A stretch of 49,379 bases of DNA from Clostridiales bacterium (GTDB lineage: Bacteria; Bacillota; Clostridia; Christensenellales; Borkfalkiaceae), in assembly GCA_015055805.1 (NCBI GenBank), contig SVHN01000013.1:1-49379 (forward strand), given 5' to 3'. The position numbers and the translations under genes were made by a program. The notes beneath the pieces are model-generated. The model searched no databases. It saw only the letters and a list, made by a program, of their open reading frames with translations, and was not told where the DNA came from. This document shows positions 8,966 through 25,256 of the stretch, piece after piece. Each line of letters opens with the position of its first letter. The first letter of the stretch is position 1.

Positions 8966-8968
8966 CTT

Positions 8969-9227: not shown

Positions 9228-9944
9228 TCACAAGATTATTGAAATCTTTTGTAATTTCTTTTTTCTTTCCTTATATTCTGGCAAGAAATTTGATAACGCT
9301 AAATAAAACTTTTTTGAATGATTAGGTTCAATGAAATGCGTGAATTCGTGATAGATAACGTATTCAACACACTCTATCGGCGCATTGATTAGAGCATAGT
9401 TGAAAGTCAAAATTTTACGCACGAAGTTGCAACTGCCCCACCTTGAAGTCATTTTTCTAAACTTTATCGTGGGAAAATCACCACAGTATTTTTTGAACAA
9501 AGGATATACTTTTTCGCAAATGCTTGTTACTATTTCCTCAACTTGTTTATACAGCCACTTATCCAAAACTTTTTTCTTTAGCGATAAATCGTCTATACTT
9601 CTTACGTATAGTTTGATAAAAGAATCGCCTATTTCAACGTAATTCTTTTTAGACAAAAAAACTTTTAACGTCAAATCTTGCCCGAACACCTTAACCGTTT
9701 CCCCGTCAATATACTGTTTAGGTTTCGGCAAAGACACTTGCACCTTATCGTATTTTTCTAATGCACTTAAAATAAAATCTTGCTTTTCTAATATAAACCT
9801 TTCAATTCTGCTTTCGGGAACTCTTGGATTTGCGGAAACGGTAATGCTTTTATCTGGCTTAATCCTCAGGTTTATATTTTTAACCCTTTTTCTCTGCAAG
9901 TCGTATTCAATTTCTCGGTCTAATAATTTAATGCGTTTAATCAT
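9228..9944 (-). CDS. YgjP-type zinc metallopeptidase (M48-related, DUF45)
   Basis: A 238-residue soluble protein of the YgjP/DUF45 family, related to SprT/WLM-type zinc peptidases. The family hallmark SRWGSC (167-172), zinc motif HEFTH (199-203) and third ligand in NHSKKFY (His209) are all present, so it should be catalytically competent. Family members are often encoded beside type I restriction genes, which fits this island; substrates are unknown. Its ATG overlaps the upstream stop codon by 4 nt (ATGA type), so it is translationally coupled to the HTH-nucleotidyltransferase. Confidence 0.82.
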   Translation of the reverse strand: MIKRIKLLDREIEYDLQRKRVKNINLRIKPDKSITVSANPRVPESRIERFILEKQDFILSALEKYDKVQVSLPKPKQYIDGETVKVFGQDLTLKVFLSKKNYVEIGDSFIKLYVRSIDDLSLKKKVLDKWLYKQVEEIVTSICEKVYPLFKKYCGDFPTIKFRKMTSRWGSCNFVRKILTFNYALINAPIECVEYVIYHEFTHFIEPNHSKKFYLALSNFLPEYKERKKKLQKISIIL

Positions 9945-10423
9945 TTTTCGCCATGTACGTAAATCTTTATTCCATCTCTTAAAACATCTTGAACTAAATC
10001 AATATTATTTTTCAAATTCAAAATATCAAGCAGATTTATTTTTTTCTTTAAGTTTTCACGCAAAATTTCAACCATCTCATCAAGATTATAATTATCTTCT
10101 CTTACCAGCACAAATATATCAACGTTGCTTGTCTCGTTTTCTTCGCCTTTAGCATAAGAACCAACGAGATATGCGCATTCGATATTATATTCCTTAAAGA
10201 TACTCTCACACACTTCTTTAATTTTTTCAATACTTAAAAGTCCGTGCTCTTCATCCACGTAGCCATATTGCTCTAAAACTTGACACATAAACTTATACTT
10301 TAAATCATGCCACCTACTCTCGTCGTTCTCATATTTAGCATAAGTTCTTCTAGTTATCCCCAACAATGATGCCGCTTCTTCTTGCGTTAGACCTTTTGCC
10401 CACCTGATAGTTTTAAGTTTCAT
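9941..10423 (-). CDS. HTH-MNT fusion: regulator with nucleotidyltransferase domain
   Basis: 160 residues: an XRE-type helix-turn-helix (about 5-35, GLTQEEAASLLGITRRTYAKYE) and a MNT-type nucleotidyltransferase domain (about 65-155). The GSX10DXD signature is recognisable as GSY (88-90) but reads NVD at 100-102, so the first metal-binding Asp is Asn and activity may be lost or altered. MNT domains usually act as antitoxins that modify HEPN toxins; here the partner is instead a YgjP peptidase overlapping by 4 nt. The promoter upstream carries repeated ATTTCCCATT boxes, consistent with autoregulation. Start ATG 10423 has GAGGTGGT upstream. Confidence 0.75.
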   Translation of the reverse strand: MKLKTIRWAKGLTQEEAASLLGITRRTYAKYENDESRWHDLKYKFMCQVLEQYGYVDEEHGLLSIEKIKEVCESIFKEYNIECAYLVGSYAKGEENETSNVDIFVLVREDNYNLDEMVEILRENLKKKINLLDILNLKNNIDLVQDVLRDGIKIYVHGEK

Positions 10424-10440
10424 AAGACCACCTCAGCGTC

Positions 10441-10494
10441 ATTATACACCATTTCCCATTTTAAATCAAGCGTTTTAGGAAAATATTTCCCATT
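10441..10494 (-). promoter_or_regulatory. Promoter with repeated boxes for the HTH-MNT operon
   Basis: Minus-strand TTGATT (10469-10464), 17-bp spacer and TATAAT (10446-10441). The decamer ATTTCCCATT occurs at 10451-10460 inside the spacer and again at 10485-10494, 34 bp apart and in direct orientation, upstream of the -35. These are likely operators, probably for the HTH domain of the gene they precede. Confidence 0.65.
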
Positions 10495-10556
10495 ATTTTA
10501 AAATTTTTTGAGAAATTTTTTCTCATCACTCATTTTCGACAATTTCCCTAATAATA

Positions 10557-10593
10557 AAACATAACAGAGGCAACCCTTGCCTCTGTTATGTTT
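10557..10593. terminator. Strong terminator after hsdR
   Basis: Perfect 17-bp stem (10557-10573 with 10577-10593) around a 3-nt loop, T-runs on both sides. It closes the long restriction array, whose last gene hsdR stops at 10624. Confidence 0.9.
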
Positions 10594-10623
10594 TTATCTA
10601 ATTATTATCTTTAAATACAAACT

Positions 10624-13600
10624 CTAACTTGCTATCCAGCCGTAGCCTTGGATTGCCATGTCGATAAAGTGGTTAAGTAAAAGATTAATCTTTGACTCGA
10701 AAGCTTCTTTATCGTAACTTTCTGGCAAATCTTCGTTAAGAGCATATTCAATAGCCGACTTGACTTTTAATCTCGGTTGGTCGTCCTTGTACCAATCAAC
10801 AACTAAAAGTTCATCTTTTTCTGTAGTAAGTTTCTTGAATAAATTCTTTGCTGCAAGTTTTACTTTTTGCTCTTCCGCTTTGGTAAGTTTTTTACCACGA
10901 ACAAGTAAATCGTAAACTTCAAGCTCTTCTTCTGTTAACCCCTCAACGTTTGGTCTCTCTTGCTCTTTTTGTAAATCTTCTAAGAGTTTTACAAGTTGCT
11001 CATAGTAATCTTCATTCTCCGAACCGCCAGCATTATAGCGGTCAATAATGTTTTTAAACCTTTGCGAAAACTGCATTCTAGTACAATTTCGACTCAACAT
11101 ATCTTGCAAAGCTTTTTCAAGGAAAGCCTTTAAGTCGTCAATTTCAATAGCCTTATACGTAGCTTTTTTAATCTCTGAACGAAGTTCGTCAATATTGATT
11201 TTTGAAAGGTCAATAACTTTAGTTCCGTGAATAGCATATTCTTTTTGCGACTCTTCTGCTGAATCAGAAGAAACACTACTATCAAGCACCGCCGCCATAC
11301 GATTTCTTGCACGTTGAATCTTTTCATCATCGATTTTGTTGTGCATTAAACCATGAATATACGCCAAAGGCGCAAACTTTTCATTATCCCAATGGCGTTC
11401 AAAGATTTCAGGCTTTGACGCTTCATAAAGATTTATCATAGTGTTTGTTACAACCCTAAACTTATCTTTCGTTTCGTCGTTAGCAACTATTACGTCATAC
11501 GCCTCTCTTAATGCTTCAAGCTTATCAAAAGTAGCACTCTCTAATAGGACCTTATCTAAAGACACACCCAACGTTTGCAAGAACGCATCCCCTTCAGCAA
11601 TACAAGAATCAAGCAACACAATAAGCTCGTCAATCTTCTTTGCAGGCATAGCCCTGTCGTCATCAGGAACGGCGTAGTCAGATAAAGCCTTTTTCATAAA
11701 GCTGAACACGTTTACGTAGTCAACGATAATTCCGCACGGCTTGTTAGGATATACGCGGTTTGCCCTTGCAATAGCTTGCATAAGCGTATGCGATTTCATA
11801 GGCTTGTCAAGATAAAGCGTAGAAAGGCTTTTTACGTCAAAACCAGTAAGCCACATTGCACAAACAAATACAAGCTGAAGTTTATCGTTAGGGTCTTTGA
11901 ACCTATCTTCAATATCCTTTCCATCAACAGTAATGGCGCTCATTTTTGCCCTATGCGTAGCAATATCAAGCCCTTTGTCGCCAAACTTTTTAACTTCATC
12001 CGCTTCTTCAGAAATTACAACCGCCATTTCAACGTTATTCATATAATCAAGAATAGCAGAAAGCCTATCACGTTCTTCTTTAGTTTTTGCGTTGTTTCGC
12101 TCTTGAATAATCGTTTTCTTTTCTTCTGCCCAATAATGCTGAACTTTGTTATACATAGTAACAGCAGTATACTTGTCAACCGAAACAACCATGCCTTTGC
12201 CAAGGAATCCACGGCGAGGGAAGTGGTGAGCAATATCTTGAGCAATTTTTTCTAATCTATCATCACGCTTGATAACTTCTAAAATACGAGAAGAAGAATT
12301 TTCTAAAAGCCTTGCTTCGTCTTCGTTAAGGTTTTCCGTTTCAATAATATCCACAACGTCATCATCAAGGAAATCATTTTTGAGCCCAACTTCAGGGACA
12401 CGGCGAGAATAGAATAAAGGCACAGTTGAACCGTCTTCTACCGATTGCGCAAAGTTATACTCTGAAACGTAATCACCGAACCATTGATTAGTTAGCCTTT
12501 TTGACCCCAAAAGCGGAGTTCCTGTAAACGCTATAAAGTTAGCATTAGGAAGTGCAGAGCGCATATTTTCAGCTAAATCTTTATATTGAGTGCGGTGCGC
12601 TTCATCAACCAAAACAAAAATATCGTTTCGTGTTGAAAGTATAGGATATTTTTTAGTTTTATCATAACGGAATTTATGAATAAGCGTAAACACAAATTCC
12701 TTGTTCTTTTGTAAAAACTCTCTTAACTGTTCGCTATTTTTAGGCTGACATTCGTCATTGTTACCTATAACTTCCGTGCGAACAAAGTTTTTGTGTATCT
12801 GCGTGTCAAGGTCATCACGGTCAGTAATAATAAGGAAAGTAAAGTTTCCTGTAATCTTGCGCTTTACTTTGCGCGCAAACATTACCATTGAATAAGATTT
12901 ACCACTACCTTGCGTGTGCCAAAATACACCAAGTTTACCTTTTAACTCTTCCTTTTTCTCAACCGATTCAATTAAGTTGTTAACACCTAAATATTGATGG
13001 TTTTTAGCAATAATCTTATACTTTTGATTATCAAATAAAACAAAGTTTTCAACGTAATCTAATAAACGTTCTTTCTTTAACAAGCCTTCTATAAAATAAA
13101 CGATAGAAACGCCATTTTCTCTAATGTTATCGCGATTAGGCTTTTCCTTTTCGCTATCAACTTTGAGCCATTCAAAGAAATAATCATAAGTGGCGTTAAA
13201 CGCACCAAGCCTTGTTTCTAACCCATTAGACAAAACGCAAATTTGGTTGAACGCAAAAAGATTAGGCACGTCTTTTATGTAATCCTTTAGGTTTTTATTA
13301 TACGCTTCTTCAACTTTAACAACGCTATTTTTAAGTTCTATAAATACTATAGGAAGACCGTTTATAAATAATAAAACGTCTGGTCTTCGCCAATAAAGTT
13401 TACCTTGCACCCACATCTGCGATACGGCTGTAAACTTATTGTTTGAAGGCGTGTCAAAATCAATAAGCTTAACAAAATCAAAATCGTCTTTTCCGTTCCT
13501 ACGAACTTTTACCTTAATTTGGTTTCTTATTTTGTTATATAGTTCATAGTTAGTTGCAACAATATCGGTAGCAGAAAAATCACGAACAAGCGTTTTAATA

Positions 13601-13830
13601 ACGTCGTTTATGATTTCTTCTGGAATATGCGGGTTTATTTTCAAAAGAGATTCTTTTAATACGCATGGCAAAACACACTCTTTTTTAGAAGAGCGCCCTG
13701 TTCCGTCGTTTAAATCTTCTCTCTTGTTTGGGTCTGCGTCACATTTTATAATGTCATACCCAAAATCTTGCTGAGATAATTTCTCTAAAACGGCTATTTC
13801 AATATCATCTTCCGTAATATATTTCGCCAT
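10624..13830 (-). CDS. hsdR: Type I restriction enzyme, R subunit (HsdR)
   Basis: The motor and nuclease subunit of a type I restriction-modification complex; translocates DNA and cuts it when HsdS reports unmodified sites. In 1068 residues: PD-(D/E)xK nuclease domain with RRPD (148-151) and ELK (165-167), helicase motif I TQGSGKS (306-312), DEAH box (409-412), TGTPL (motif III), and the motif VI region with QAIARANR, followed by the C-terminal helical domain. Length is normal and intact. GGAGATAAAT precedes ATG 13830. The KAP gene upstream ends 10 bp before the start. A near-identical copy of the first 15 codons plus ribosome site is found at 15320-15370. Confidence 0.93.
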   Translation of the reverse strand: MAKYITEDDIEIAVLEKLSQQDFGYDIIKCDADPNKREDLNDGTGRSSKKECVLPCVLKESLLKINPHIPEEIINDVIKTLVRDFSATDIVATNYELYNKIRNQIKVKVRRNGKDDFDFVKLIDFDTPSNNKFTAVSQMWVQGKLYWRRPDVLLFINGLPIVFIELKNSVVKVEEAYNKNLKDYIKDVPNLFAFNQICVLSNGLETRLGAFNATYDYFFEWLKVDSEKEKPNRDNIRENGVSIVYFIEGLLKKERLLDYVENFVLFDNQKYKIIAKNHQYLGVNNLIESVEKKEELKGKLGVFWHTQGSGKSYSMVMFARKVKRKITGNFTFLIITDRDDLDTQIHKNFVRTEVIGNNDECQPKNSEQLREFLQKNKEFVFTLIHKFRYDKTKKYPILSTRNDIFVLVDEAHRTQYKDLAENMRSALPNANFIAFTGTPLLGSKRLTNQWFGDYVSEYNFAQSVEDGSTVPLFYSRRVPEVGLKNDFLDDDVVDIIETENLNEDEARLLENSSSRILEVIKRDDRLEKIAQDIAHHFPRRGFLGKGMVVSVDKYTAVTMYNKVQHYWAEEKKTIIQERNNAKTKEERDRLSAILDYMNNVEMAVVISEEADEVKKFGDKGLDIATHRAKMSAITVDGKDIEDRFKDPNDKLQLVFVCAMWLTGFDVKSLSTLYLDKPMKSHTLMQAIARANRVYPNKPCGIIVDYVNVFSFMKKALSDYAVPDDDRAMPAKKIDELIVLLDSCIAEGDAFLQTLGVSLDKVLLESATFDKLEALREAYDVIVANDETKDKFRVVTNTMINLYEASKPEIFERHWDNEKFAPLAYIHGLMHNKIDDEKIQRARNRMAAVLDSSVSSDSAEESQKEYAIHGTKVIDLSKINIDELRSEIKKATYKAIEIDDLKAFLEKALQDMLSRNCTRMQFSQRFKNIIDRYNAGGSENEDYYEQLVKLLEDLQKEQERPNVEGLTEEELEVYDLLVRGKKLTKAEEQKVKLAAKNLFKKLTTEKDELLVVDWYKDDQPRLKVKSAIEYALNEDLPESYDKEAFESKINLLLNHFIDMAIQGYGWIAS

Positions 13831-13840
13831 ATTTATCTCC

Positions 13841-15226
13841 TTATTTTATCACTTTAAGTAAACTAGAAAATTTTTGAAAATGTTCTTCATACTCTTTATA
13901 GTTTGAATAATCTGAAATAACCCAGTTAGAATAATTTGGAGATACTATTAATAAAGCAAACCACAAAAAACACCATAAATCAGTCAATTCAAACAAATAC
14001 TTACTGTTGTTCAAATTTTGTTGCACTCGACCATTAGACATATTCATATTTTCAGTCATTTTGTTTTTTAATACATTAAAATACTTATTATGGTCTACAA
14101 CTACACCAAAAATCTCTTGCGAGTAGGAACTTGGTTTGTATTTTTCTATTTTTTGCTCTTGCTTTACAACAAGCAATATCTCCATATACATATATGAAAT
14201 ATCCAAATTGGCGTTGTCTGTAACTATCAAATTATGTATTAAATTTGACTTCTCTATTATATTAATTTTCTCCCTAATGGTAAAATCACTAAATATCATT
14301 TCTAAATAGTCTTTCACGTCATTTTCATTTATGATTGAATTAGAAGTGAAAAGACTTTCATATTCGGCTATTTTCTCATGGAACTTTTCTTCATTCAGTT
14401 TGCCTTCATTTAAATATATTTCAAAACTAAAGAATTTTTTATAGTAACTATTAATGTATTCAAAATATGTTCTTTTGTCATTTTGGCTTTTGTGCATGCC
14501 TATGTTTGCCAAGTTATAAATTTTAGCAACGGCATTACTTAATTGTTCTTTATCAATAGAAAGAATAACCTGTAAATTATCCACATCATTAAAAACATGA
14601 TGTAATCTCTCCAAGACTTTAATTGAATATTCGGGCAAACATCTATCAAGTTCATCAACTAAAACAACTATAGGATAGTTTTCTGCCAATTCTCTTAACC
14701 CTGAAATTATTTGTTTTATTATTACTTGCAGATTTGCATTTTGGTCAAATGATGTATCAATTTTTTCTTTATCTTCTATTTTCTCTATATGCTTTTTAAA
14801 TTCTTTTGCTTTTTTAAGCCCTTTTCGCCCTAATTCTACAACGTCTACTCCGATTTTTGTCTTTATTATTTGTCCAACTATTGATAAAAAACCGTTAGCA
14901 ATTTTACTTAACAACTCTTTTTTTAAACCATTTACTATATTATCAGTTTTTTGCAAGTCGTTTAACTTGTTAGCAAAAGTGTAAAGAATAGCAATTAAAG
15001 GCTCTTCATAAAAATCGTTCTCCCAAGCATTATAACGAATTATCAAATAATCGTCTTTGATTTGTTCTTCTAACATATTGAGAACAAAAGATTTGCCTGA
15101 ACCCCACTCTCCATCTAAAGCAAATGAACAATTCTTTTTATTTTGTGATAACGTGGATAAAATGTTTTTAATATGGTCAACGTAATATTGTCTATTTAAT
15201 ATGTCTTTTTCTTTTGTATTAGTCAT
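13841..15226 (-). CDS. KAP family P-loop NTPase (copy 1)
   Basis: A 461-residue KAP-type NTPase (STAND-related P-loop class). Walker A GEWGSGKS at 39-46 and Walker B VVLVDELDRC with DELDR at 191-195; the downstream SIDKEQL and the KVLERLHHVF segment are typical. KAP proteins are frequent in phage-defence loci and act in signalling or membrane-associated complexes; this copy has no long transmembrane insert between Walker A and B. AGAGGTG lies 7 nt before ATG 15226. It aligns colinearly with copy 2, with identical motif positions but diverged elsewhere, particularly after residue 240. It sits between an orphan hsdR start and the real hsdR, so it looks like an inserted cassette. Confidence 0.8.
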   Translation of the reverse strand: MTNTKEKDILNRQYYVDHIKNILSTLSQNKKNCSFALDGEWGSGKSFVLNMLEEQIKDDYLIIRYNAWENDFYEEPLIAILYTFANKLNDLQKTDNIVNGLKKELLSKIANGFLSIVGQIIKTKIGVDVVELGRKGLKKAKEFKKHIEKIEDKEKIDTSFDQNANLQVIIKQIISGLRELAENYPIVVLVDELDRCLPEYSIKVLERLHHVFNDVDNLQVILSIDKEQLSNAVAKIYNLANIGMHKSQNDKRTYFEYINSYYKKFFSFEIYLNEGKLNEEKFHEKIAEYESLFTSNSIINENDVKDYLEMIFSDFTIREKINIIEKSNLIHNLIVTDNANLDISYMYMEILLVVKQEQKIEKYKPSSYSQEIFGVVVDHNKYFNVLKNKMTENMNMSNGRVQQNLNNSKYLFELTDLWCFLWFALLIVSPNYSNWVISDYSNYKEYEEHFQKFSSLLKVIK

Positions 15227-15319
15227 TTTGTTTCACCTCTAACTTGTTAAAGTTAGTTATTAATATTATTTAAAATTTCTAGAACTCGGTTTTTTTCTTT
15301 CTAAATTATCAATCTTGAA

Positions 15320-15370
15320 TTAATCTAAAACGGCTATTTCAATATCATCTTCCGTAATGTATTTCGCCAT
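15320..15370 (-). pseudogene. Orphan 16-codon hsdR 5' fragment
   Basis: ATG 15370, with AAGGAGA upstream, encodes MAKYITEDDIEIAVLD and stops. The first 15 residues equal those of HsdR, and about 57 of 60 bases match 13791-13850, including the ribosome site and spacer. It lies 18 bp downstream of KAP copy 2, just as the real hsdR lies 10 bp downstream of KAP copy 1. This is the scar of a duplication or recombination between two KAP-hsdR junctions. Confidence 0.88.
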
Positions 15371-15388
15371 ATCTTTCTCCTTAAATGT

Positions 15389-16750
15389 TTAGCTTAAAAG
15401 TTTCAATGTGTCAAAAAACTGTTTTGAATATTTAATTATTTGATTGACATATCTTTCTCTATAATAATCGTCCTTATACAACTCGTATTTAATCTTTTCT
15501 GAAGAATATTGTTTTAATAAAACTACAAATAATAACGCCCACGTGTCGGTTACATTAAAAAGTCCCCAGTCGTTTTCTCCTTGTGGTACAGCGTAACAAT
15601 TACTATTTTTGTCGAAAACTTTATTATATATTACACTCAGTTCTTTATCTAATTTTAGGTCTATTACTTGTTCAAAATTTTCAAGTTCAACGTTAAACTT
15701 TCGCTCTAAATCTTCATAAATAAACGACACCATAGTAAGCACTATCTCAACTGCAAAATCGTCAGGCGTAAAATCCCTTTCTGGTTCAATGGTTAACGAA
15801 TGAACAAGTTTAGCTTTTTCTAAAATTTTTATCTGCCGCCTAATATTTGTATTAGCAAATATTTCATTTATAAATTCGTTAATTGAATGAACTGTATTAT
15901 ACATAGGATTATCACTAAATTGATCAACGTAATCACTAAACACAAGTTCAAATCTTTGCTTATCTATTTTGCCACGTGGAAGTTTAATAGTAAAATCAAT
16001 AAATTTGGTTAAGTACCCTGCAACATTTACACTTTCACCAAAAATTGTTTTTACGGTTTTATCAAGTTGGTTTTTATCAATGGATAAAACAACTTGCAAA
16101 TTATTAACACCTTCAAAAACGTGATGCAATCTTTCCAAGACTTTTATTGCATATTCGGGTAAACATCTATCAAGCTCGTCAACACAAATTACTATAGAAT
16201 ATTTTTCTGCAAGTTTTATAAACTCATTTTTTAATTCAATTATAGTTTCCTTAAAATCATAAAATTTATCGAAACTATATTTTTCACGCTCTTCTTTCTT
16301 TGATTCGCTAGAAATATCCCTTATTTCATTTACCGCTTTTTCAATATTAACCCCTATAAAAGGCTGCACTAGGCTACTTCCCACCGAAAGCAGTTTTTTG
16401 CCTATTTTAGAAAAAACTTTTTTTACAGCACCTTTCGTTCTTGATGGCAAAATTTTTGTGCTTTCCACAAAATTCAACAATGCAGAAACAATGGCAATAA
16501 ACGGCTCTTCATAGTAGTCGTACTCCCAACAGTTATAATGAATAACTAAATAAGGCTTTTTGTCTTGTTCTTTAATAGATGAAAGAGTTTTCTCTATCTC
16601 TTCTAACACCCAAGTTTTACCCAAACCCCACTCACCATCAATAGCAAACACTCTATGTCCATTATTTTGAGCATTTGTTTCAATCAATTTAACTATTCTA
16701 CTTATAAAATTTCTTCGCTTTAATAAATCTATCTTTTGTTTTTCTTCCAT
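15389..16750 (-). CDS. KAP family P-loop NTPase (copy 2)
   Basis: 453 residues, same architecture as copy 1: Walker A GEWGLGKT at 39-46, DELDR at 191-195, then CLPEYAIKVLERLHHVFEG and SIDKNQL. The shared HYNCWEYDYYEEPFIAI-like segment before residue 90 is also conserved between the copies. No long hydrophobic insert is seen. It begins 4 nt after the ImmA-type peptidase stop, without a clear ribosome site, suggesting translational coupling. From position it was probably the original neighbour of hsdR before copy 1 arrived. Role is unknown; an accessory or regulatory NTPase for the restriction complex, or an independent defence effector, are both possible. Confidence 0.8.
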   Translation of the reverse strand: MEEKQKIDLLKRRNFISRIVKLIETNAQNNGHRVFAIDGEWGLGKTWVLEEIEKTLSSIKEQDKKPYLVIHYNCWEYDYYEEPFIAIVSALLNFVESTKILPSRTKGAVKKVFSKIGKKLLSVGSSLVQPFIGVNIEKAVNEIRDISSESKKEEREKYSFDKFYDFKETIIELKNEFIKLAEKYSIVICVDELDRCLPEYAIKVLERLHHVFEGVNNLQVVLSIDKNQLDKTVKTIFGESVNVAGYLTKFIDFTIKLPRGKIDKQRFELVFSDYVDQFSDNPMYNTVHSINEFINEIFANTNIRRQIKILEKAKLVHSLTIEPERDFTPDDFAVEIVLTMVSFIYEDLERKFNVELENFEQVIDLKLDKELSVIYNKVFDKNSNCYAVPQGENDWGLFNVTDTWALLFVVLLKQYSSEKIKYELYKDDYYRERYVNQIIKYSKQFFDTLKLLS

Positions 16751-16754
16751 AATT

Positions 16755-17330
16755 TTAATCTAAATTCCAGTTTAATAATCCTAAATTTTCTAATCTATAT
16801 CGCAATGCTTCGCTTGAAATGCCTAGTTCTGACCTAAAATACCAACAAAAAACTTTCCAGTCCTTATAATTGCACGGTTGCTTGTCCACGTATAACGGCT
16901 GTCTATACGACCTATTAGTAAGTGAACAAGCAGTTACAAAATGCTCCGCAATAAGTTCTTTCGGCATTAAGAAATATACTGCAAACTGGTCGGCTTGCCA
17001 CTCTTGTTTGTTGCTTTTAGAGTTTCCACCAACGTTAGAACAAATAAGTTTTTGTTCGTCTAAAGTGTGCTTTAAGAAATAATGTCCTAACTCGTGCGCT
17101 TTGGTAAAAACAGCCCTTTGCGGAAGTTTGTTAGAATTGTAAAATATAAACTTTTGCTCATCCATATTAGCAAACAGTCCATCCACCCCTTGCGATAAGT
17201 TCGCTGGGCGAAGTCTTATGTTTTCCCCTTTGCAAACTCTACTTATCGCTCTAAAAGGGCTTTTTGTAATTTTATACGTGGATAAAACTTCGTTTGCTAA
17301 TTTTTCAAAATCATTCGTCAAGGCTGTCAT
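16755..17330 (-). CDS. ImmA/IrrE-type metallopeptidase (M78, DUF955)
   Basis: A 191-residue single-domain zinc peptidase. The motif KAHELGHYFLKHT (about 90-102) supplies HExxH, and the following QEWQADQFAVYFLMP segment matches the family glutamate ligand region. ImmA/IrrE enzymes cleave repressors in response to signals, for example releasing mobile-element genes. No HTH is fused here, and no intact XRE repressor lies beside it, though a truncated one is at 21976-22092. The start is ATG 17330 (a GTG precedes it), overlapping the hsdS 3' end by 20 nt. Confidence 0.78.
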   Translation of the reverse strand: MTALTNDFEKLANEVLSTYKITKSPFRAISRVCKGENIRLRPANLSQGVDGLFANMDEQKFIFYNSNKLPQRAVFTKAHELGHYFLKHTLDEQKLICSNVGGNSKSNKQEWQADQFAVYFLMPKELIAEHFVTACSLTNRSYRQPLYVDKQPCNYKDWKVFCWYFRSELGISSEALRYRLENLGLLNWNLD

Positions 17331-18672
17331 CACAATACGCTTTATATAATTCTTCTAAATCTTGCTCGGTTAAGCCGCCATCTTTTCTTGCCGCCGCCTT
17401 AAACTCATTTTTAAATTCAATAAACGTCTTTTTGGGCTTAAATTCTAATACCTTTTCTTGTTTTTCTCCCACATCTAATTTACCGCTCATAAGCCTTGGC
17501 AAAAGCATATCTCTTTGCTTGATAAGATTTTGATTTGATTCCGCTAATTTATCGATTTGATTTTTTAATTGCTGAATATTGCAAGCAAAAGCTTTCATGA
17601 CTTCAGGGGTAGGCAATAAAACTTCTCCTTTTCTTAAAAAATACTCAAATTTAAAATTTATAATACCTGTTGATTGTAATTGAAATCTATCGATAATTCT
17701 TGTTTCATACAAATAATTCATCCAATAAATAAAGTAATTTGGTTGAATAATTTTCGTGTTAAGTCTAAGCATTTTACAAAAACTAGCACATATCACTTTG
17801 TTTCTCAACCGTTTTAAGGTGTTTTCTGTAACTATTATTGCCCTACCAACAGGTTGCTCTGCCGTTCCACCGGACACTTCTAAAATAATATCATTAAGTT
17901 GTAATTGTCTTGCAGAATAGTTACTTGATTTATGATACCTAAAAGGGCAGGTAGACAAGTCGCCTTTTTTAACGTTGGGAAAATCTGTTCCCCTAATTAC
18001 AAAAGCTCCTACAGGATAATTTTTATCTTCATCATCATTTCCCCAACCACCACCTATATAGTCATCTATAACATCTTTCATTCTCAAAACAGCAAAACCT
18101 TCTGGTATTAAACCTATTGCTGAATCTACAAATTTTACTTTTTCGTGACCTGGGAAACGGAAGCGGACAAACCATTCTTTATAAAGATTTTCTGCCATTT
18201 GCTCTAAAATCTTTATCCGCTTATTATTGTTTTCAATCAAGTTGTTATATTGATATACAATGGTTGCAATTTTAGTTTGGTTCTCTAATGAAGGTAATAA
18301 TATTTTTTGTTTTTTGAGCATTCCAACAGAAAGACCTGGTTGCGCCGCTTGCCCCGATAGTCTGTTCAGATTCAAACTTGAAAGGGCATAGTTCATAAAT
18401 TTGGCATTATGGTTTGATTTACAAACACCGACAATAGCATGGTCCGTCATATAACCTTCGCCTTTAAAATAGCGTACATTTCCGCACTTTGCTCCTTGAC
18501 GGCCAATTAAAACACATTCGCCCCTAAAATTTGATATTTCGGTGTATCCTCTTAATCCATTACCACCGTAAACAGGATAGTTGCCAGACTCTGATATCTT
18601 TTCCTCGGTTATATTTTTACCGCTACTAAAGCGATCAAAAACTTCTCCTATTCTGTATGTGTAAAATTCCAT
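17311..18672 (-). CDS. hsdS: Type I restriction enzyme, specificity subunit (HsdS)
   Basis: Recognises the bipartite target sequence for methylation and cleavage. 453 residues with two target-recognition domains: TRD1 (about 1-165, ending MAENLYKEWFVRFRFPG, the first conserved helical region) and TRD2 (about 175-390), followed by the second conserved region with LPRLMSGKLDV. GGGGGC lies 7 nt before ATG 18672, and the codon overlaps the reconstructed hsdM stop as TAATG. The C-terminal tail past residue 400 is acidic/basic and longer than in many HsdS. The target sequence cannot be predicted from sequence alone. Confidence 0.9.
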   Translation of the reverse strand: MEFYTYRIGEVFDRFSSGKNITEEKISESGNYPVYGGNGLRGYTEISNFRGECVLIGRQGAKCGNVRYFKGEGYMTDHAIVGVCKSNHNAKFMNYALSSLNLNRLSGQAAQPGLSVGMLKKQKILLPSLENQTKIATIVYQYNNLIENNNKRIKILEQMAENLYKEWFVRFRFPGHEKVKFVDSAIGLIPEGFAVLRMKDVIDDYIGGGWGNDDEDKNYPVGAFVIRGTDFPNVKKGDLSTCPFRYHKSSNYSARQLQLNDIILEVSGGTAEQPVGRAIIVTENTLKRLRNKVICASFCKMLRLNTKIIQPNYFIYWMNYLYETRIIDRFQLQSTGIINFKFEYFLRKGEVLLPTPEVMKAFACNIQQLKNQIDKLAESNQNLIKQRDMLLPRLMSGKLDVGEKQEKVLEFKPKKTFIEFKNEFKAAARKDGGLTEQDLEELYKAYCDDSLDE

Positions 18673-18708
18673 TATTTAGCCCCCAACATATTAAGACCAG
18701 CTATTAAA
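18672..18708 (-). pseudogene. Detached 3' end of hsdM
   Basis: Twelve codons reading LIAGLNMLGAK and a TAA that overlaps the hsdS ATG. If the IS110 element is removed at a shared CT dinucleotide (20245-20244 and 18710-18709), the hsdM frame continues from NISNNL straight into this tail. This in-frame reconstruction with TAATG coupling to hsdS is the evidence for the call. Confidence 0.65.
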
Positions 18709-18818
18709 AGTCAAGTAAAAAATGACACTAAAACAAGAAAAATTCAAATAATTTTTTTGGGCTAAAAAAGGCATAACAATAAACCGTCCCATTGGAACGG
18801 TGGCTGATTAAATCATGA

Positions 18819-19997
18819 TTAAATATTAGGACTATATGGTTGTTTGGAGTTTAATATAGCCCATACAATAATACATAATTTCCTAGCAACGGCAGTAACG
18901 CAAAGTCGATGTGATTTTCCTCTGGCTTTTAACCTGCAATAATAATTATACAGTGCTGGATCGCTTTGTAAAGACATGAAAGCAGCAAGCCATAACGCAC
19001 GTCGCAAATAAGATGAACCGCGTTTTGATATTTTGTTTTGACTAGCGTTAAATTCTCCTGACTGTTTAACTGAGGCGTCTAAACCGGCATAAGCTACGAG
19101 TTTGGAAGGGGATTCAAATCTGGATATGTCGCCGATTTCACTTACGATTATACAACCTAAAACGGGACCAATTCCACTAATTGTTGTAATTACTGAGTAT
19201 TCAGATTCTGCAAGTATTTTTTCCATTTCCTTATCAATATCTTCAATTTGCTTTTCGATAAAACCTATTTGTTCGATAAGTTGTTTGATTTGAAAGGAAA
19301 AAGAATCTGTAGCATAAGAAATTCCTATGGAAGAATGCGCCGCTGATTTAATTAGTTCAGCTTTTTCTCTACCATTTCTGCCTCTGCTAATTTTAGCGAT
19401 AAAATTAGTAAGTTTTGTAGTTGAAACGTCCATAAACTCTTCAGGGGTAGAAAATTTTTCCAATAGTTTTCTGCTAGTAATACCAAAAATATCTGAAAAT
19501 ATTGTTTCATATTCAGGGAAAACCTGATCCAAAAGGGCAATTGTTCGTTTCTTTAGGCTCGTACAAATATCCGTAACGGAAAAGCGATAGCGAGATAGAT
19601 TTTTTAATGCGAGTAAGCTCTCGTTTGGAATAATTGTTTCTGCAAATCGTCCGAAACGAATAAAGTCGGAAATCATTACGCTATCCAAATTATCGTTTTT
19701 AACTTTACGAATAGCAACATCACGAAAGGCTGCTGTTTGGATGGGGTTGAATACTTTTACGGTAAAACCTTTCTCTATTAAAAAGAAGTAAAGCGGATAC
19801 CAATAGTGCCCAGTAGATTCCATTCCGACTACGCAGTTATCCATAGAAATGGATTGAGAAGTTAGTTTCTCAATAAGAGAAGAGAAACCAAGAGAAGAGT
19901 TTTTAATGTTGAATGGTTTAATTACAATGTCTGCAGAATCGTTTGTGACTGCTACTTGGTGAGACCGCTTTGCAATATCTATTCCAACAAAAAACAT
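18819..19997 (-). CDS. IS110-family transposase (DEDD + Transposase_20)
   Basis: 392 residues. The N-terminal RuvC-like DEDD domain shows GIDIAKRSHQV (Asp7) and GMESTGHYW; the C-terminal Transposase_20 domain shows TISGIGPVLGCIIVSEIGD, YAGLDASVKQSG and KISKRGSSYLRRALW, which contains the conserved Ser. Start ATG 19997 has GGAGG 8 nt upstream; an in-frame TTG at 20012 overlaps that site and is rejected. The protein is full length with no visible lesion, so the element may be active. Confidence 0.9.
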   Translation of the reverse strand: MFFVGIDIAKRSHQVAVTNDSADIVIKPFNIKNSSLGFSSLIEKLTSQSISMDNCVVGMESTGHYWYPLYFFLIEKGFTVKVFNPIQTAAFRDVAIRKVKNDNLDSVMISDFIRFGRFAETIIPNESLLALKNLSRYRFSVTDICTSLKKRTIALLDQVFPEYETIFSDIFGITSRKLLEKFSTPEEFMDVSTTKLTNFIAKISRGRNGREKAELIKSAAHSSIGISYATDSFSFQIKQLIEQIGFIEKQIEDIDKEMEKILAESEYSVITTISGIGPVLGCIIVSEIGDISRFESPSKLVAYAGLDASVKQSGEFNASQNKISKRGSSYLRRALWLAAFMSLQSDPALYNYYCRLKARGKSHRLCVTAVARKLCIIVWAILNSKQPYSPNI

Positions 19998-20014
19998 AAA
20001 GGATACCTCCAAGG

Positions 20015-20240
20015 TAAGTGTGTATAGATAAAGAATCCACTTTTACTACGCAGGTACATACTGGTTGGAGAAAGGATAACAAAGTATCATCCAGCTCATT
20101 CGCACAAACACGTAGAGAAAGAGGCGTAACTCTTAGCAGGAAGAACAAAGTCTTAAGCAGGATAGCGACGACCTCTATCTATACCAAAAAAATTATAACA
20201 CAAAACACAATTTAAGTGTTGCGTTTTAGTACATTTTACC
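20015..20240 (-). ncRNA. Candidate bridge RNA of the IS110 element
   Basis: IS110-group elements are known to encode a bridge RNA in the noncoding end upstream of the transposase. This 225-bp stretch has the right place and size, with a TATAAT-like -10 on the minus strand near 20198 and at least two stem-loops, one with ATACT/AGTAT arms around a 20-nt loop (about 20055-20085) and one with CTTA/TAAG arms around an 18-nt loop (about 20130-20160). I could not match the loops convincingly to the target and donor sequences, so the call rests mainly on position. Confidence 0.4.
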
Positions 20241-20245
20241 AGCAG

Positions 20246-21962
20246 GTTATTAGAAATGTTTTGCTCAATCGCTCTTGCTTCTTGATTTAGTTTTTCAAGT
20301 TCGCTATTGAGTGATAGCATTTCTGCTTTGAACTCTTCTGCGGTTAAGCCGTCATCTTCAATAACAACTCCAACGTAACGCCCAGCGTTTAAGGAATAGT
20401 CTTGGTCTATAATTCCGTCTTCGCCGTCGAGTTTTGCAACTTTGCATAGCCCTATAACGTCTTGATATTCGCCGTTAGGGAATCTTTCCAATAGCCAATC
20501 AATTTGCGCCTTAAAGTAGTCTTTCGTTTTAACGTCTTTTTCATCAGCCGTTTCTGGCGCGTTTGCCATTAACTGTTTGTATTCTTCAATTAAATCAACA
20601 AAAGCTTGTTTATCACCTTCATAAAGGCGAGAGATTATGCCTAAATTTTTAATCTGTTCGTCGCTGAATTTACGGTGCGCCCTATCAACCTGCGCGAATA
20701 CGTTTCTCGCATCTACAAAAAGAATTTCGTTCTTTTTATCGGTATTTGCTTTAGCCTTATCAAAGAACCAAAGTGTTGCAGGAAGTGTTACGGAAGAGAA
20801 CATATTTGAAGGCAAAGTAACCATTTGAGAAATAATCCCTTCTTCTATCATTTTCTTTCTAATATCGTATTCGCTATTGCCAGCATCAGACGCAGAGTTT
20901 GCCATAACTAGAGCGGCTTTACCTGTTTCTTTTAGTGCTGATGCGAAGTAAGAAATCCACAAATAGTTTGCGTTAGGAACGGTTTCCTTTTTATCGCTAT
21001 CTTTTTTTGCGGTTTTAGATTTGTTTTTAGGTATGCCGTATGTATTAAACCTTGCATCATCCTTTACTCTCTCATAAACAACTTCGTCAACGTTGAAAGG
21101 TGGATTTGCCATAACGTAATCAAACTTACCAACAGCGTCATAAGGGTCTGCATAGAAAGAGTTTGCTTCGGTTATTTCACCACGGACGTTATTGAGTAAC
21201 AAGTTCATTTTTGCTAACTTTACGGTATCGGGTTCTTTTTCCACACCATAACAACGGAATTTCATCATATCCGATTCGCTTACGTTGTGGTTATGCATAT
21301 AGCGTGCAGCTTGAACAAACATACCACCCGAACCACATGCAGGGTCAAGGAACATTTTATCGCCAGAAGTAGGTTTTAACACTTCCACCATATATCTAAC
21401 AACTGTTGCTGGCGTATAGAACGTTCCGCCGTCTTTACCTTCTTGCAAAGCGAAACTGCCAAGAAAGAATTCGTAGATTTCACCAAAAAGGTCAACGCTA
21501 ATGTTTTCGGGTATATCTTTAAACACACGGACTATTTTAGATAAGAGTTCGGGTTCTTCTTCTGGAACAAGTTGACCATAAACTTCTTTAGGTAAAACGC
21601 CGTCCATTTTGTCGTTATTCTCTTCTATCGCAACCATTGCTTTTTTAACGAGTGTGGCTTTTTCGGCATTATCTGGTGCGTCGTTTATGTAATCATAATA
21701 AGCTTCGGGGGGGCAAATAGAAACCGCAAACTTCTATAGAAATCTCTTTCATAGATTTTTCCATACGAGTTCCCTTTAACTTATTATACTTTTCCTCTAT
21801 CTCTGCTTTATGTTGTTTATATAAAATATCCGCATAGCGAAGGAATATTAAGCCAAGTATAGGCTGCCCATATTTATTTGCAGCCAAGTGCGCACCTGCA
21901 CGAAGCATATCCGCAGAATGCCAAAGGTCATCTTTTAATTTCTTTAGTTCTTTATCAGTCAT
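20246..21962 (-). pseudogene. hsdM: hsdM, DNA methyltransferase subunit: frameshifted and truncated by IS110
   Basis: Encodes the N6-adenine methyltransferase subunit of the type I system. ATG 21962 has GGAGAAATAAG upstream. Codons 1-85 (N-terminal helical domain, LWHSADMLRAGAHLAANKYGQ) read to a C7 tract (21713-21707 on the minus strand), where the frame ends in PPRSLL-stop. Removing one C restores PPEAYYDYINDAPDN and joins the remaining methyltransferase: motif I DPACGSGGMF and motif IV NPPF are intact. The 3' end is interrupted by IS110, replacing the last dozen codons with about 30 IS-encoded residues. The frameshift could be a real null, a phase-variable tract or a sequencing error. Confidence 0.85.
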
Positions 21963-21975
21963 CTTATTTCTCCAT

Positions 21976-22092
21976 TTACACAGTCACTAGTAAATTAATG
22001 TTTTTCTTATCGCAAAAATCTTCAAATGCTTTTTTTGCTAAACGGCTAGGGTTATAGTTTCCGTTATCCCACCTATTAATAGTGGCAAAGGT
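21976..22092 (-). pseudogene. C-terminal remnant of an XRE-type HTH gene
   Basis: Thirty-eight codons ending just before hsdM. The segment TFATINRWDNGNYNPS is the recognition-helix region of an XRE/Cro-CI domain, followed by KKAFEDFCDKK. No start or first helices are present: the frame runs back into the 3' end of the Toprim gene, where the family similarity stops. It looks like an ancestral hsdM-proximal regulator cut off when the upstream module was inserted. Confidence 0.7.
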
Positions 22093-22121
22093 AATATAAA
22101 ACCATACATATCTACTATTAT

Positions 22122-22973
22122 CTAATACATAATAAGGCTTAGTTCATTTTCTACTTGATATTTTTTTAATTTGGCATATAGTTCTGTTTGCTTGAAATAA
22201 TGAGGTCCAAAAACACATGACAATAAATTAAACATGTTTCTTTTCCCTAAACTTTTGATACTTTTATTTTCACTAAAACAACTTTTTAAACTAATGCTCA
22301 AAGCTTCACAAAAATCATGTCCATTTGTAAAATTTAATAATTCTTCATTCTTTAAAGATTCTATAATATTATTACAAATTTCTTCTTTCTCCTTGTCAAA
22401 TTCATGATTTCTCTTAATACTTTCATACACATCTCTTCGATCAACATTATTAAACTTTAAAAAACAAGTTATTGGAAGCTTACTAAAGTTTATTCCCCAA
22501 TCATACATATAATTGGCTTTTCTCACCGCCGTAAGAACAATTAAGTCGAACAATACTTTTTTTCTAAATTCCAAGTAATCCATTTTTATATTCGTCAATT
22601 TAAAAATCAAAGCATTAAATGCGTCATTGTTTCCTACGATCATCATTTCTAAATTACAAAAATCATAATTAAATAATTGTAACTGTTCTTCGTTTAAATC
22701 AAAATCCTTATCCACAATACCAAACACTTGTTTCTCATCTAAAAACACTTCCGTTACCATTTTGACAATTTCTCTTTTCCCACCATACGACTCATATAAT
22801 ATAGTATTTTCATTATCAAAAAGCGTATCTAATACAGAAATATCATTTTGTCCTTCAACTAAAATAAATGACTTTTTTTTATTGTTGGGAACTGATAATT
22901 GCATTTTAATTTCATTTATAACAGTTGTTTTATCAAGCTTTGGTCTTATCGAATCAAAATATTCACTTGCCAT
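22122..22973 (-). CDS. DUF4435 Toprim protein, AriB-like effector of a PARIS-type system
   Basis: 283 residues of the DUF4435 family. Toprim residues are visible: VEGQND with Glu40 and GIVDKDFD with Asp88/90/92, and Glu109 in CNLEMMI. A C-terminal helical part contains FTNGHDFCEAL. In the PARIS defence system the AriB effector has this domain and is released by its ATPase partner when phage anti-restriction proteins are sensed, then cleaves tRNA-Lys. Pairing and order match: its ATG overlaps the 3' end of the AAA ATPase by 11 nt. Assignment to PARIS rather than another AAA/DUF4435 pair is inference from domains and context. Confidence 0.72.
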   Translation of the reverse strand: MASEYFDSIRPKLDKTTVINEIKMQLSVPNNKKKSFILVEGQNDISVLDTLFDNENTILYESYGGKREIVKMVTEVFLDEKQVFGIVDKDFDLNEEQLQLFNYDFCNLEMMIVGNNDAFNALIFKLTNIKMDYLEFRKKVLFDLIVLTAVRKANYMYDWGINFSKLPITCFLKFNNVDRRDVYESIKRNHEFDKEKEEICNNIIESLKNEELLNFTNGHDFCEALSISLKSCFSENKSIKSLGKRNMFNLLSCVFGPHYFKQTELYAKLKKYQVENELSLIMY

Positions 22974-24300
22974 TTATATCTCCCAAATCAACTACCATGT
23001 CCCAATGATTATTAATAAGTTGAGGAGAATGAGTAGCAATAACAATACTAAAAGAATCTTGTCTTAATTCAACAATCTTGTTAAAATCATTTAACATTTC
23101 TCTTTGCCAAGCAACATGTAAAGATATTTCTGGTTCATCAATTAACAAAACAAGCTTATTCTCTACACCAAAAATTAAATCATAGTATAATACTATAATT
23201 TGTTTCTCGCCCGAAGATAATTTCTCCAAAGGCAATTCAACACCATCTTCACGTAAAATTCTCAATCCAAAAGCACTTGATACTTCAACATGCTTATTGA
23301 AAAGCTTTTTATCAATAATCTCTTTATATAAATCAAGTTTTTTAATTAAATCATCAAAAACTTCTAATTTTGTTCTTGTATCATCCAAATAAATGCTTAA
23401 TGCAGTAGATAAATCTCTCCTATATTTGTGCTGAGTACTAGTAGTTGAACCACGCATATCTTTGAGTAGATTATAATCAGATATCTTTTCTTGTTTTAAA
23501 ATTATTTCCCCTAATTTATCTAAATACTCTCTTTGTGAAAGTTCAATATTTGTATCAAACAATCTTTTTGGGAAGGAACTATCGAGTTTAGAGGATATTT
23601 GCGAATAATTAATAATTATTTCTTTTATCTGTGTTTCTAATTTCTTGGGAATTTCTTTTATAACTTCTATTACTTGCGATTGTTCCTCTCCATAATATCT
23701 ACTTTCAGATTTTTCTTCTCGTATCAACCTTTGTTCTTTTATAAATTTAATTTCTCCTAATGACTTTTTGAATTCACTATAATAATTATCCAATTCTATA
23801 AAAGAACCTTCCGCTTTCTGTTCTCTTTTTGCTCTCATATGATTAACCCATATTAAGCGATCTTTTATTTGTTCATCATTAACCACATATCTTTCTCTTA
23901 GTGTCGCCATTTCTCTTTCATTAAGTATGTCACCAGTTCTTCTATCAAAGAATTGATTAGGACCTATTTCTTCGAAATATTTAAATGGGAATCTTTTTGA
24001 ATATCTCTCAGCTTCTCTAGGAGAAATTAATAGTAATTTTATATCATTAACACTTATTTCAGATGCGCTAATTTTATCCACAAAAATTCTTTTTCCATCA
24101 TTAGACTCTATCGTTAATGACTTAAAAGGATATTGTCCCAACTCATACAATCCCTCTTCAACAACTGAATATATAATTTTTAAAATAGTGCTTTTCCCGT
24201 ACCCATTAGGACCTGTTAAAATCGATATTCCTGTCGGCTTAAAATCAATTTCATATGTAAATTGACCAAATAAATCTGTAACATTTAATTTTTTTATCAT
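22963..24300 (-). CDS. ABC-class ATPase, AriA-like sensor of a PARIS-type system
   Basis: 445 residues. Walker A GPNGYGKST (30-38), ABC signature LSSGEKQ (361-367), Walker B LVLLIDEP (383-390) and H-loop ATHSPQ (422-427), with a long charged helical insert (about 130-340) between the lobes, as in AAA15/AAA21 ATPases of the OLD/Rad50-like class. GAGAGG precedes ATG 24300. In PARIS the ATPase AriA holds the Toprim partner until triggered. It follows the Fic gene by 47 bp without a terminator, so it is likely cotranscribed. Confidence 0.75.
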   Translation of the reverse strand: MIKKLNVTDLFGQFTYEIDFKPTGISILTGPNGYGKSTILKIIYSVVEEGLYELGQYPFKSLTIESNDGKRIFVDKISASEISVNDIKLLLISPREAERYSKRFPFKYFEEIGPNQFFDRRTGDILNEREMATLRERYVVNDEQIKDRLIWVNHMRAKREQKAEGSFIELDNYYSEFKKSLGEIKFIKEQRLIREEKSESRYYGEEQSQVIEVIKEIPKKLETQIKEIIINYSQISSKLDSSFPKRLFDTNIELSQREYLDKLGEIILKQEKISDYNLLKDMRGSTTSTQHKYRRDLSTALSIYLDDTRTKLEVFDDLIKKLDLYKEIIDKKLFNKHVEVSSAFGLRILREDGVELPLEKLSSGEKQIIVLYYDLIFGVENKLVLLIDEPEISLHVAWQREMLNDFNKIVELRQDSFSIVIATHSPQLINNHWDMVVDLGDINGK

Positions 24301-24347
24301 ATTAACCTCTCTTATAACAACTTTTTTATTAATACATTTATTTTTAT

Positions 24348-25256
24348 CTATTGTTCATCACAGATATCTTTTAACACACTTAAGTAATCGTCTAATCTTG
24401 CGTTTAGATATTCTGCGAAAAGTTTTGTCATTGCTGATAAATCTTTTTTAACGTGATAAGCGTCAAATGCGTCGTAATATCTCTTTCTATCCGTAAACTT
24501 TATATCTATCGGTGGATAGCCTGCTTTCATAAGTTCTAAATTGACAAGTAGTCTACCCGTTCTACCGTTTCCATCAATAAAAGGGTGTATCCCCTCAAAC
24601 TGAATATGAAAATAAGCAAGTTTTTCAGCGATATTTCTATTATCATTTTTATAGTCAGCAAGCAATTCGTTCATTTTTGGCTCTATTAAATAAGGTTGAA
24701 CAGGCTCGTGATAAGCGCCCATAATACGAACGGGAACTTTTCTATACGTGCCTTTATCCATCGGCTTATCGGCAAGAACAAGCGAATGTATCTGCTTAAT
24801 AACGTATTCGGTAAGTTCGGCTTTTTCTTTAACCAAGTCAACCACAAAATAGAAAGCGTCTTTATGACCTACCGCTTCCATATGGTCTTTAAGTGGCTTT
24901 TGGTCAATGGTAAGTCCACGAAGTACCATGTCCGTTTCACGAAGTGTTAAGGTATTCCCCTCAATAGCGTTTGAGTTATAAGTGTACTCAATCATAAAAT
25001 CTTCGTAAAGCCTTTGAACTTCGCCTTCGGTTAGCGGACGACAAGCATCAAGTTCCACCTTTTTCTTTTCTATTAAGGAAACTAAACTTTCACTCGTCTT
25101 AATCCTTCCGTCCTTAGGCTTATCCGCACCGTCGGGTATATACCAAATCTTGCCGATACGATACGCGCCGTTAATTTGACCGTTAGCGCAAAGCGTTCTA
25201 ACACGCCTATCTGAAATATTCCATTTTTCAGCCGCTTGTTTTGAATTCATTGCCAT
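24348..25256 (-). CDS. Fic-domain protein with N-terminal DNA-binding-like domain
   Basis: 302 residues. Residues 1-45 form a MerR/excisionase-like winged helix (AAEKWNISDRRVRTLCANGQI, then GKIWYIP). The Fic core carries the full active site HPFIDGNGRTGR (224-235), so AMP transfer is likely. The inhibitory helix motif SNAIEGN (95-101) precedes it, the class II arrangement in which Glu99 blocks ATP until released. Fic genes are common inside type I restriction loci; targets are unknown. AGGAGA lies 8 nt before ATG 25256. It is the first gene of the defence array and lies behind a promoter with four phased direct repeats, which its own DNA-binding domain may recognise. Confidence 0.85.
   Translation of the reverse strand: MAMNSKQAAEKWNISDRRVRTLCANGQINGAYRIGKIWYIPDGADKPKDGRIKTSESLVSLIEKKKVELDACRPLTEGEVQRLYEDFMIEYTYNSNAIEGNTLTLRETDMVLRGLTIDQKPLKDHMEAVGHKDAFYFVVDLVKEKAELTEYVIKQIHSLVLADKPMDKGTYRKVPVRIMGAYHEPVQPYLIEPKMNELLADYKNDNRNIAEKLAYFHIQFEGIHPFIDGNGRTGRLLVNLELMKAGYPPIDIKFTDRKRYYDAFDAYHVKKDLSAMTKLFAEYLNARLDDYLSVLKDICDEQ

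Follow-up and report, generated by a model that had tools for sequence, protein, structure and literature searches.

Why does a type I restriction-modification (R-M) operon carry two nucleoside triphosphatase (NTPase) genes of the KAP family and a peptidase gene between the genes of its specificity and motor subunits? This question is raised by the window, a 49379-bp stretch of DNA from a Clostridiales bacterium. The stretch makes up the whole of contig C14; the genome comprises 1.73 Mb in 20 contigs and is an estimated 95.7% complete. The operon, located on the minus strand throughout, reads hsdM, an IS110 element, hsdS, a gene for an M78 peptidase, KAP-A, a duplicated piece of the hsdR start (the hsdR scar), KAP-B and hsdR (Table 1). 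Gene calls were checked by Pfam, PADLOC hidden Markov models (HMMs), blastn and tblastn, and the layout of this operon was read from the single contig. The order hsdS-M78-KAP-KAP-hsdR given in a preliminary description of the locus was borne out with its positions, its motifs, the 20-nt overlap of M78 and hsdS and the 4-nt gap from M78 to KAP-A. The tight packing claimed there applies to these two junctions but not to the KAP pair, which lies 162 bp apart; KAP-B is separated from hsdR by 10 nt. As detailed below, the KAP part of the observation is real and recurrent, and the trio of peptidase and two KAPs is not fixed.

Both NTPases are clear members of the Pfam KAP_NTPase family (PF07693), scoring 105 and 92 bits at a cut-off of 20, and both match the PADLOC phage-defence candidate PDC-S20 with best E-values of 1e-108 and 6e-96. 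As positions 3–445 of the 446 of profile PDLC04957 are covered by both proteins, this is a nearly full-length PDC-S20 match. KAP-A and KAP-B alike possess the Walker A motif (residues 39–46) and the sequence DELDR (191–195), a DxxDR-type Walker B motif; across 58 KAPs, G42 and K45 of Walker A as well as D191, D194, R195, C196 and P198 are invariant. Membrane segments inserted in the NTPase domain are common in KAPs, but they are not required. Judged by hydropathy only, neither window protein has a strong segment, with top 19-residue Kyte-Doolittle means of 1.46 for KAP-A (residue 84) and 1.78 for KAP-B (residue 411, outside the NTPase domain). Pfam domains were limited to KAP, AAA_22 and, in KAP-B alone, NPHP3_N, and a sequence search of the C-terminal half against solved structures yielded no significant match.

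How often members of this family adjoin hsd genes was examined in named genomes using a profile of four KAPs, two of which came from relatives where KAP adjoins hsdM (L and G numbers are our handles for loci and genomes). The best 80 of at least 117 confirmed loci were analysed, 79 of which have a labelled KAP open reading frame (ORF; L074 has none). Near-copies were kept in this set (L043/L046, L068/L069, L076/L077/L087), and the profiles used to label its hsd genes were derived from the loci themselves, so that diverged hsd genes may be missed. At 25 of the 79 PDC-S20 loci hsdM, hsdS or hsdR is the next gene on the same strand at a distance of up to 150 bp, compared with about 0.4% by chance according to our own rough estimate, derived from 85 HSDR_N match places in 101 genomes of the phylum. 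A same-strand hsdM, hsdS or hsdR, in some cases only a fragment, is present within 5 kb at 35/79 loci, and the one-kb bins around KAP hold hsd genes in 107 of 432 cases at 0–3 kb versus 15 of 312 at 6–9 kb. The association extends over Clostridia, Erysipelotrichaceae, Treponema, Fibrobacter, Bacteroidales and others, in the order hsdS-(cargo)-KAP-hsdR (L014, L017, L018, L022, L023, L026, L035, L036, L053, L056, L057, L177) or hsdM-(cargo)-KAP-(cargo)-hsdS (G043, G052, G065, L062, L065, L067, L081, L084, L091). Among relatives, KAP matches occur in four other genomes of 100; the three strong ones (G043, G052, G065) show the second order, with KAP directly following hsdM, and the fourth is a weak match seen in a 3.9-kb stretch only (G061). 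The genes had previously been proposed to form a functional accessory module rather than debris. Since the KAP family recurs in type I operons of many taxa, far above chance in the named set, the KAPs indeed look like kept cargo and not debris; the trio as a module was not supported.

When the R-M label was placed on a tree of 84 KAPs, 15 changes were counted, at least 10 of which are forced by starred branches, while shuffled labels required a mean of 28 and none of 500 shuffles was as low, in line with independent gains of the association. The KAP of G065 is identical to the KAP of L078. The R-M core of L026 is near that of the window (hsdR 72%, hsdM 77–78% identity), but the one KAP encoded there shows 37% identity to KAP-A as well as to KAP-B; the core is kept and the KAP differs. 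In the congener G043, the same flanks (window 8056–10593, 93% identity; 24380–25449, 96%; blastn) enclose a different type I operon with an hsdR only 23% identical. Between the hsdM and hsdS of this operon lies a separate KAP, which in the G043 assembly appears to be broken into two parts of 295 and 162 aa. The flanking nucleotidyltransferase gene is found in four other genomes of the 44 in the genus (own included), and hsdR lies next to it in G043 only. Genes for a helix-turn-helix (HTH) nucleotidyltransferase, a YgjP-like peptidase and Fic (window positions 9228–10423 and 24348–25256) border R-M systems that differ between two species of the genus.

The origin of the KAP pair can be addressed from the 162-bp gap between the two genes. 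It contains a 60-nt copy of the hsdR start with 95% identity (57/60), which includes the ribosome site and the start codon and can be read for 16 codons before a stop. As the simplest origin, tandem duplication of one KAP was set aside because the identity between KAP-A and KAP-B (33%, 33–36% over the comparisons made) does not exceed that with other KAPs (up to 35%) and the two are not united in the tree. Instead, KAP-A groups with L012, L013, L014 and L028 (support 92, branch not starred), and KAP-B has no close sister. Scar and tree together support a separate arrival of the two genes.

Repeats of gene ends were searched at other loci as well (L011 was left out as a copy of L078), and hsd ends repeated next to cargo occur at five loci besides the window. 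L012 has a chimera in which a piece of the hsdR start of some 70 codons is fused to the hsdS end, and KAP follows 4 nt further. L065 shows 37 nt of the hsdS start, next a 124-nt hsdM end and 7 nt later KAP. The hsdS end is repeated ahead of cargo in L014, occurs twice in L040 (one copy of 25 nt) and is represented by 42 nt ahead of cargo in L281, which has no KAP. Altogether, repeated ends were observed for 8/240 hsd ends versus 6/782 ends of other genes (p = 0.007, or 0.04 minus two doubtful cases), for 0/120 hsd middles, and for none of 246 ends in type I loci not chosen for KAP. Ends of KAP genes are repeated too, at the 5' side in 4/48 cases, one of them in a KAP fragment. Three weak candidates were set aside as scars: a 22-nt hsdS match inside KAP-A of the window and a candidate in L045, both still contained in the 8/240, and L274, where the 133-bp spacing of the stubs resembles that of a tandem repeat. 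A join is recognisable with its two halves in L012 and L065, where the downstream gene's start is followed by the upstream gene's end and this in turn by KAP, as expected if a donor fragment 'upstream end-KAP-downstream gene' had paired by homology in the downstream gene while its other side was joined without homology; in the window only the first half, the hsdR start, is recognisable. The duplicates are thus compatible with stacking by one-sided recombination: an incoming operon fragment would pair by homology in one hsd gene and its other side would join without homology, leaving a duplicated hsd end while cargo accumulates. Such a mechanism is termed homology-facilitated illegitimate recombination; no literature linking that process to hsd operons was found by title or abstract start.

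The third cargo gene encodes the M78 peptidase. It starts with an ATG within 16755–17330, and a GTG is located at 17333; in the 192-aa GTG reading the HELGH motif begins at residue 80, and the Pfam Peptidase_M78 score is 65.5 bits. This lone M78 was matched solely in its own genome among 398 genomes of the phylum (E ≤ 1e-10) and, at a looser E ≤ 1e-5, in two of 101 genomes, one being its own. M78 matches occur in 22 plasmid records. Its sole relative among the ORFs compared (E ≤ 1e-10) is an Mrr-M78 fusion of Prevotella with 33% identity over 133 aa. At the named KAP loci, M78-domain genes were found in 8/79 (Pfam E ≤ 0.001), fused to an HTH domain in L043, L044, L045, L046, L049 and L072 and to Mrr in L076 and L077; L043/L046 and L076/L077 are near-copies, and the L045 M78 is slightly below the curated cut-off. 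In L045 the M78 gene ends 18 bp 5' of a KAP that is split in two. No clear excess of M78 at KAP loci is claimed because an M78-like gene, identified by motif only, is likewise present in 2/40 type I stretches selected irrespective of KAP (L241, L246). A conserved M78-KAP-KAP trio was rejected, as a second instance was not seen in any locus examined. The proposal of a single peptidase-KAP-KAP module was not supported: the trio was not met again, the lone M78 is confined to its own genome among the 398, the hsdR scar parts the KAPs, and the KAPs are not grouped together in the tree. The proposal was to fall if KAP and peptidase genes never occurred together with hsd genes in other genomes, which is not the case: five Treponema/Spirochaetaceae loci (L043, L044, L045, L046, L049) share KAP, an HTH-fused M78 and hsdS, the latter whole or as a 73-aa fragment. 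In L043 and L046 this N-terminal fragment is all that is left of hsdS, and it lies upstream of HigB-like, HTH-M78, 316-aa and KAP genes.

The best relative with a solved structure is CapP. The window M78 has the M78 domain and the HExxH motif in common with CapP and RmrA. However, the CapP-CapH and RmrA systems have M78 together with an HTH domain or an adjacent HTH partner, whereas the window M78 lacks HTH, has hsdS and KAP as neighbours and no CapH-like gene beside it. It is probably a separate cargo.

Cargo at the KAP loci is variable. KAP occurs with hsd genes alone in L022, L035, L057, L062 and L078, and at other loci a variable gene precedes KAP with a short gap or overlap, encoding an HNH nuclease (L044 by Pfam; by annotation on the named plasmid of L040's locus), an Mrr nuclease (L044), a C5 methylase (L020, 10 bp before KAP), TIR (L079) or, in the window, M78. 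On a Limosilactobacillus reuteri plasmid, a P-loop NTPase gene (L262) assigned to KAP by annotation and 25% identical to KAP-A lies 338 bp after a type III-like pair of methyltransferase and DEAD-box helicase. Matches to KAP-A are present in 47 plasmid records (five loci examined), and seven viral-contig loci were collected as well; at three plasmid loci other than those of Treponema and L. reuteri no R-M genes were found, in two cases by annotation and in the third within the stretch analysed. In a Vibrio furnissii record (L264), a KAP-annotated gene follows a DUF2971 gene at a distance of 8 bp, and a CI-like repressor and an integrase are encoded nearby. L044, a locus of a Treponema metagenome-assembled genome (MAG), contains three KAPs alongside nuclease genes (HNH, Mrr), genes of the HigB-like and HTH-M78 kinds and, interspersed among its cargo genes, stubs of KAP 5' ends. 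Prevotella/Bacteroidaceae loci L076, L077 and L087 share a cassette of a 225-aa gene, a 525-aa gene and KAP, then an Mrr-M78 fusion in L076 and L077 (L087 ends at KAP). The 525-aa gene has no Pfam match and is methylase-like by eye only; possibly, this cassette is an undescribed restriction operon.

To our knowledge, no function has been assigned to PDC-S20. PrrC is an NTPase whose gene is located between hsdS and hsdR. PDC denotes a phage defence candidate (PMC11514479), KAP proteins have been flagged as players in anti-phage immunity (PMC8195603), and prrC, which resides within a type I operon, is triggered when restriction is inhibited (PMC3874165, PMC12707154). Published work places darTG2 and RloF between hsdS and hsdR and tgvAB in a type I cluster, assigns defence to darTG2 and tgvAB, and names the hsdS-hsdR site, in the RptR paper, as a potential recombination hotspot (PMC12255303, PMC11411939). 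With PrrC of ecoprrI, a type IC embedded anticodon nuclease, the KAPs share the embedding in a type I operon. PrrC and RloC consist of an ATPase and an anticodon nuclease domain, whereas the window KAPs have the KAP domain, no Pfam domain suggesting an anticodon nuclease and no PrrC or RloC model among their PADLOC hits. DarTG2, TgvAB and the rlo genes are likewise embedded in type I operons, but their proteins are unrelated to KAPs, and the available portions of their descriptions do not mention duplicated hsd ends. The KAP-related defence proteins QatA and PifA gave weaker HMM matches for both KAPs (1e-15 to 1e-21), far below PDC-S20. In QatABCD the KAP gene has qatB, qatC and qatD beside it, whereas the window neighbours are M78, hsdS and hsdR, with no qatBCD match among those scanned. 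From the catalogue entry PDC-S20, whose profile both proteins match almost entirely, the window differs in having two diverged members in one operon with a scar between them. The statement that no named system has this content was thus half right: the KAPs are catalogued and embedded genes of type I operons are known (prrC, darTG2, tgvAB, rlo), but no description of PDC-S20, or of a KAP together with hsdS or type I restriction, was found in a search that covered part of the sources by title or abstract start and left out bioRxiv. A 2024 preprint by Payne on embedded defences and Miller 2005 may already list KAPs in type I operons.

We tentatively favour the view that both KAPs are PDC-S20 accessory NTPases carried as cargo in the type I R-M operon like prrC in ecoprrI, where they act as latent guard switches and were stacked by one-sided recombination. 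The nucleotide-binding motifs are intact, no strong membrane segment is evident from hydropathy, the genes are closely spaced on the same strand and the family recurs with many R-M systems. As an ATP-driven switch, each KAP would stay latent while monitoring the R-M complex or phage-inflicted damage; once restriction is evaded, it would trigger cell arrest or an attack on phage DNA, either through its own C-terminal domain or through a neighbouring effector. CapP cuts a repressor or partner, and the M78 peptidase may do likewise. It is, however, well conceivable that each KAP is an autonomous defence gene without a working link to the restriction enzyme, residing in hsd operons only as these are insertion-tolerant, expressed sites, and we would call the two explanations nearly even. 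Such autonomy agrees with the unrelated cargo at the same loci (Pfam AbiGi, HNH, Mrr, FRG, TIR) and with tgvAB, which protects without the hsd genes although less than the whole cluster (PMC12255303, PMC11411939). It is less easily reconciled with the recurrence of KAP beside several diverged type I operons, a C5 methylase and a type III-like pair, and with the genus slot in which both alternative systems carry a KAP. A role as a structural or regulatory subunit, with KAP adjusting how the restriction enzyme is assembled or expressed or how it translocates, e.g. by ATP-dependent control of HsdR, appears improbable: KAP does overlap or abut hsd genes on both sides, or on the sole side present, at the five loci without other cargo, but its position varies (hsdM-KAP-hsdS, hsdS-KAP-hsdR, hsdR-KAP) and most type I operons sampled lack it.

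Several observations weigh against a guard function coupled to restriction. At 44/79 named loci, some of them on contigs that end early, there is no same-strand hsd gene within 5 kb, as an autonomous gene would predict. In the phylum sample 20 other genomes of 397 matched, with one region each, and type I genes adjoin in 2/20 and in 0/4 of the strong matches; in the class sample 15 other genomes of 390 matched, and one (L177) of nine regions from eight genomes has the order hsdS-KAP-hsdR. Viewed from the restriction side, no KAP was found in the 1.5-kb flanks of 29 other hsdR loci or in 40 type I stretches; KAP is therefore a minority accessory of type I systems, while a considerable part of the KAP family in question resides in them. 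The excess of scars at hsd ends is modest, and further hsdS-centred stretches of Treponema and Fibrobacter gave none (2/128 hsd ends, one being a tandem repeat, and 1/64 middles versus 9/404 other ends). Moreover, hsdM is out of frame and cut by the insertion element in this assembly, in which hsdS and hsdR are full-length. Its two frames meet at a run of seven C (21707–21713), the longest C/G run in the window in a run scan, both pieces being 77% identical to hsdM of L026, a Eubacterium sp. MAG (tblastn); the IS110 element takes the place of the last few codons, with similarity to L026 hsdM ending at 20243, residue 567 of 573. hsdM thus looks broken here, and together with the hsdR stub this could indicate a decaying R-M operon whose leftover cargo has no present function. 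We consider such decay improbable as well, since hsdS, M78, both KAPs and hsdR are all full-length with intact motifs and the 7-C run may reflect an assembly error or a slippage switch just as it may reflect loss.

PrrC, DarTG2 and TgvAB, all encoded within restriction operons, have turned out to serve defence. A KAP family recurrent at such sites is a concrete candidate, amenable to testing, for a backup guard of restriction. The duplicated hsd ends point to a simple way in which defence genes could gather in a single operon, which bears on the growth of defence islands. One can speculate further, as a rather unlikely extension, that PDC-S20 KAPs are a general, interchangeable guard of R-M systems, whether type I, type III-like or methylase-linked, which sense restriction failure, use swappable effectors (HNH, Mrr, TIR, M78) and, like other cargo, are stacked in hsd operons by one-sided recombination leaving readable scars of hsd ends. 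If true, the history of an operon could be read from these scars.

Table 1. Features of the R-M operon and of the surrounding cassette in the window.
Feature	Position	Strand	Evidence
hsdR, type I restriction motor subunit, 1068 aa, full-length	10624..13830	-	Pfam HSDR_N, SWI2_SNF2; PADLOC REase_I 7.6e-173
KAP-B, KAP NTPase (PDC-S20), 461 aa	13841..15226	-	PF07693 5e-26; PDLC04958 6e-96; Walker A 39-46, DELDR 191-195
Sequence without assignment between hsdR scar and KAP-B, 97 bp	15227..15323	-	
hsdR scar, 60-nt copy (57/60) of hsdR 5' end including ribosome site	15324..15383	-	blastn of hsdR 5' end against window; alignment; translation
KAP-A, KAP NTPase (PDC-S20), 453 aa	15389..16750	-	PF07693 6e-30; PDLC04957 1e-108
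M78 (ImmA/IrrE-type) zinc peptidase without HTH domain, 191 aa, HELGH	16755..17330	-	PF06114 5e-18; PADLOC capP 2.5e-22; CapP structure 7t5t E 1e-7
hsdS specificity subunit, 453 aa	17311..18672	-	Methylase_S 7e-23
IS110-family transposase, at hsdM 3' end	18819..20012	-	PF01548, PF02371
hsdM main reading frame (N6_Mtase), N-terminus and last codons missing	20153..21637	-	
hsdM N-terminal part, other frame	21693..21962	-	tblastn with hsdM of L026, 77% identity
Replaceable R-M cassette, full extent	10594..24379	.	blastn of window against L009

Some further features of the window and its genome were recorded. A promoter-like sequence TTGACT/TATGTT at 18685–18714, just 5' of hsdS near the IS110 end, could drive hsdS and the cargo; the scan gave 23 such sites versus 34 in shuffles. 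A second hsdR of the same genome (L150, G000:C12) is 36% identical over residues 5–589, with no labelled hsdM or hsdS in the stretch taken. AriA-like and AriB-like genes at 22122–24300 (best PADLOC E-values 1.8e-25 and 4.4e-12) adjoin the R-M operon as a PARIS-like pair within the same replaceable cassette.

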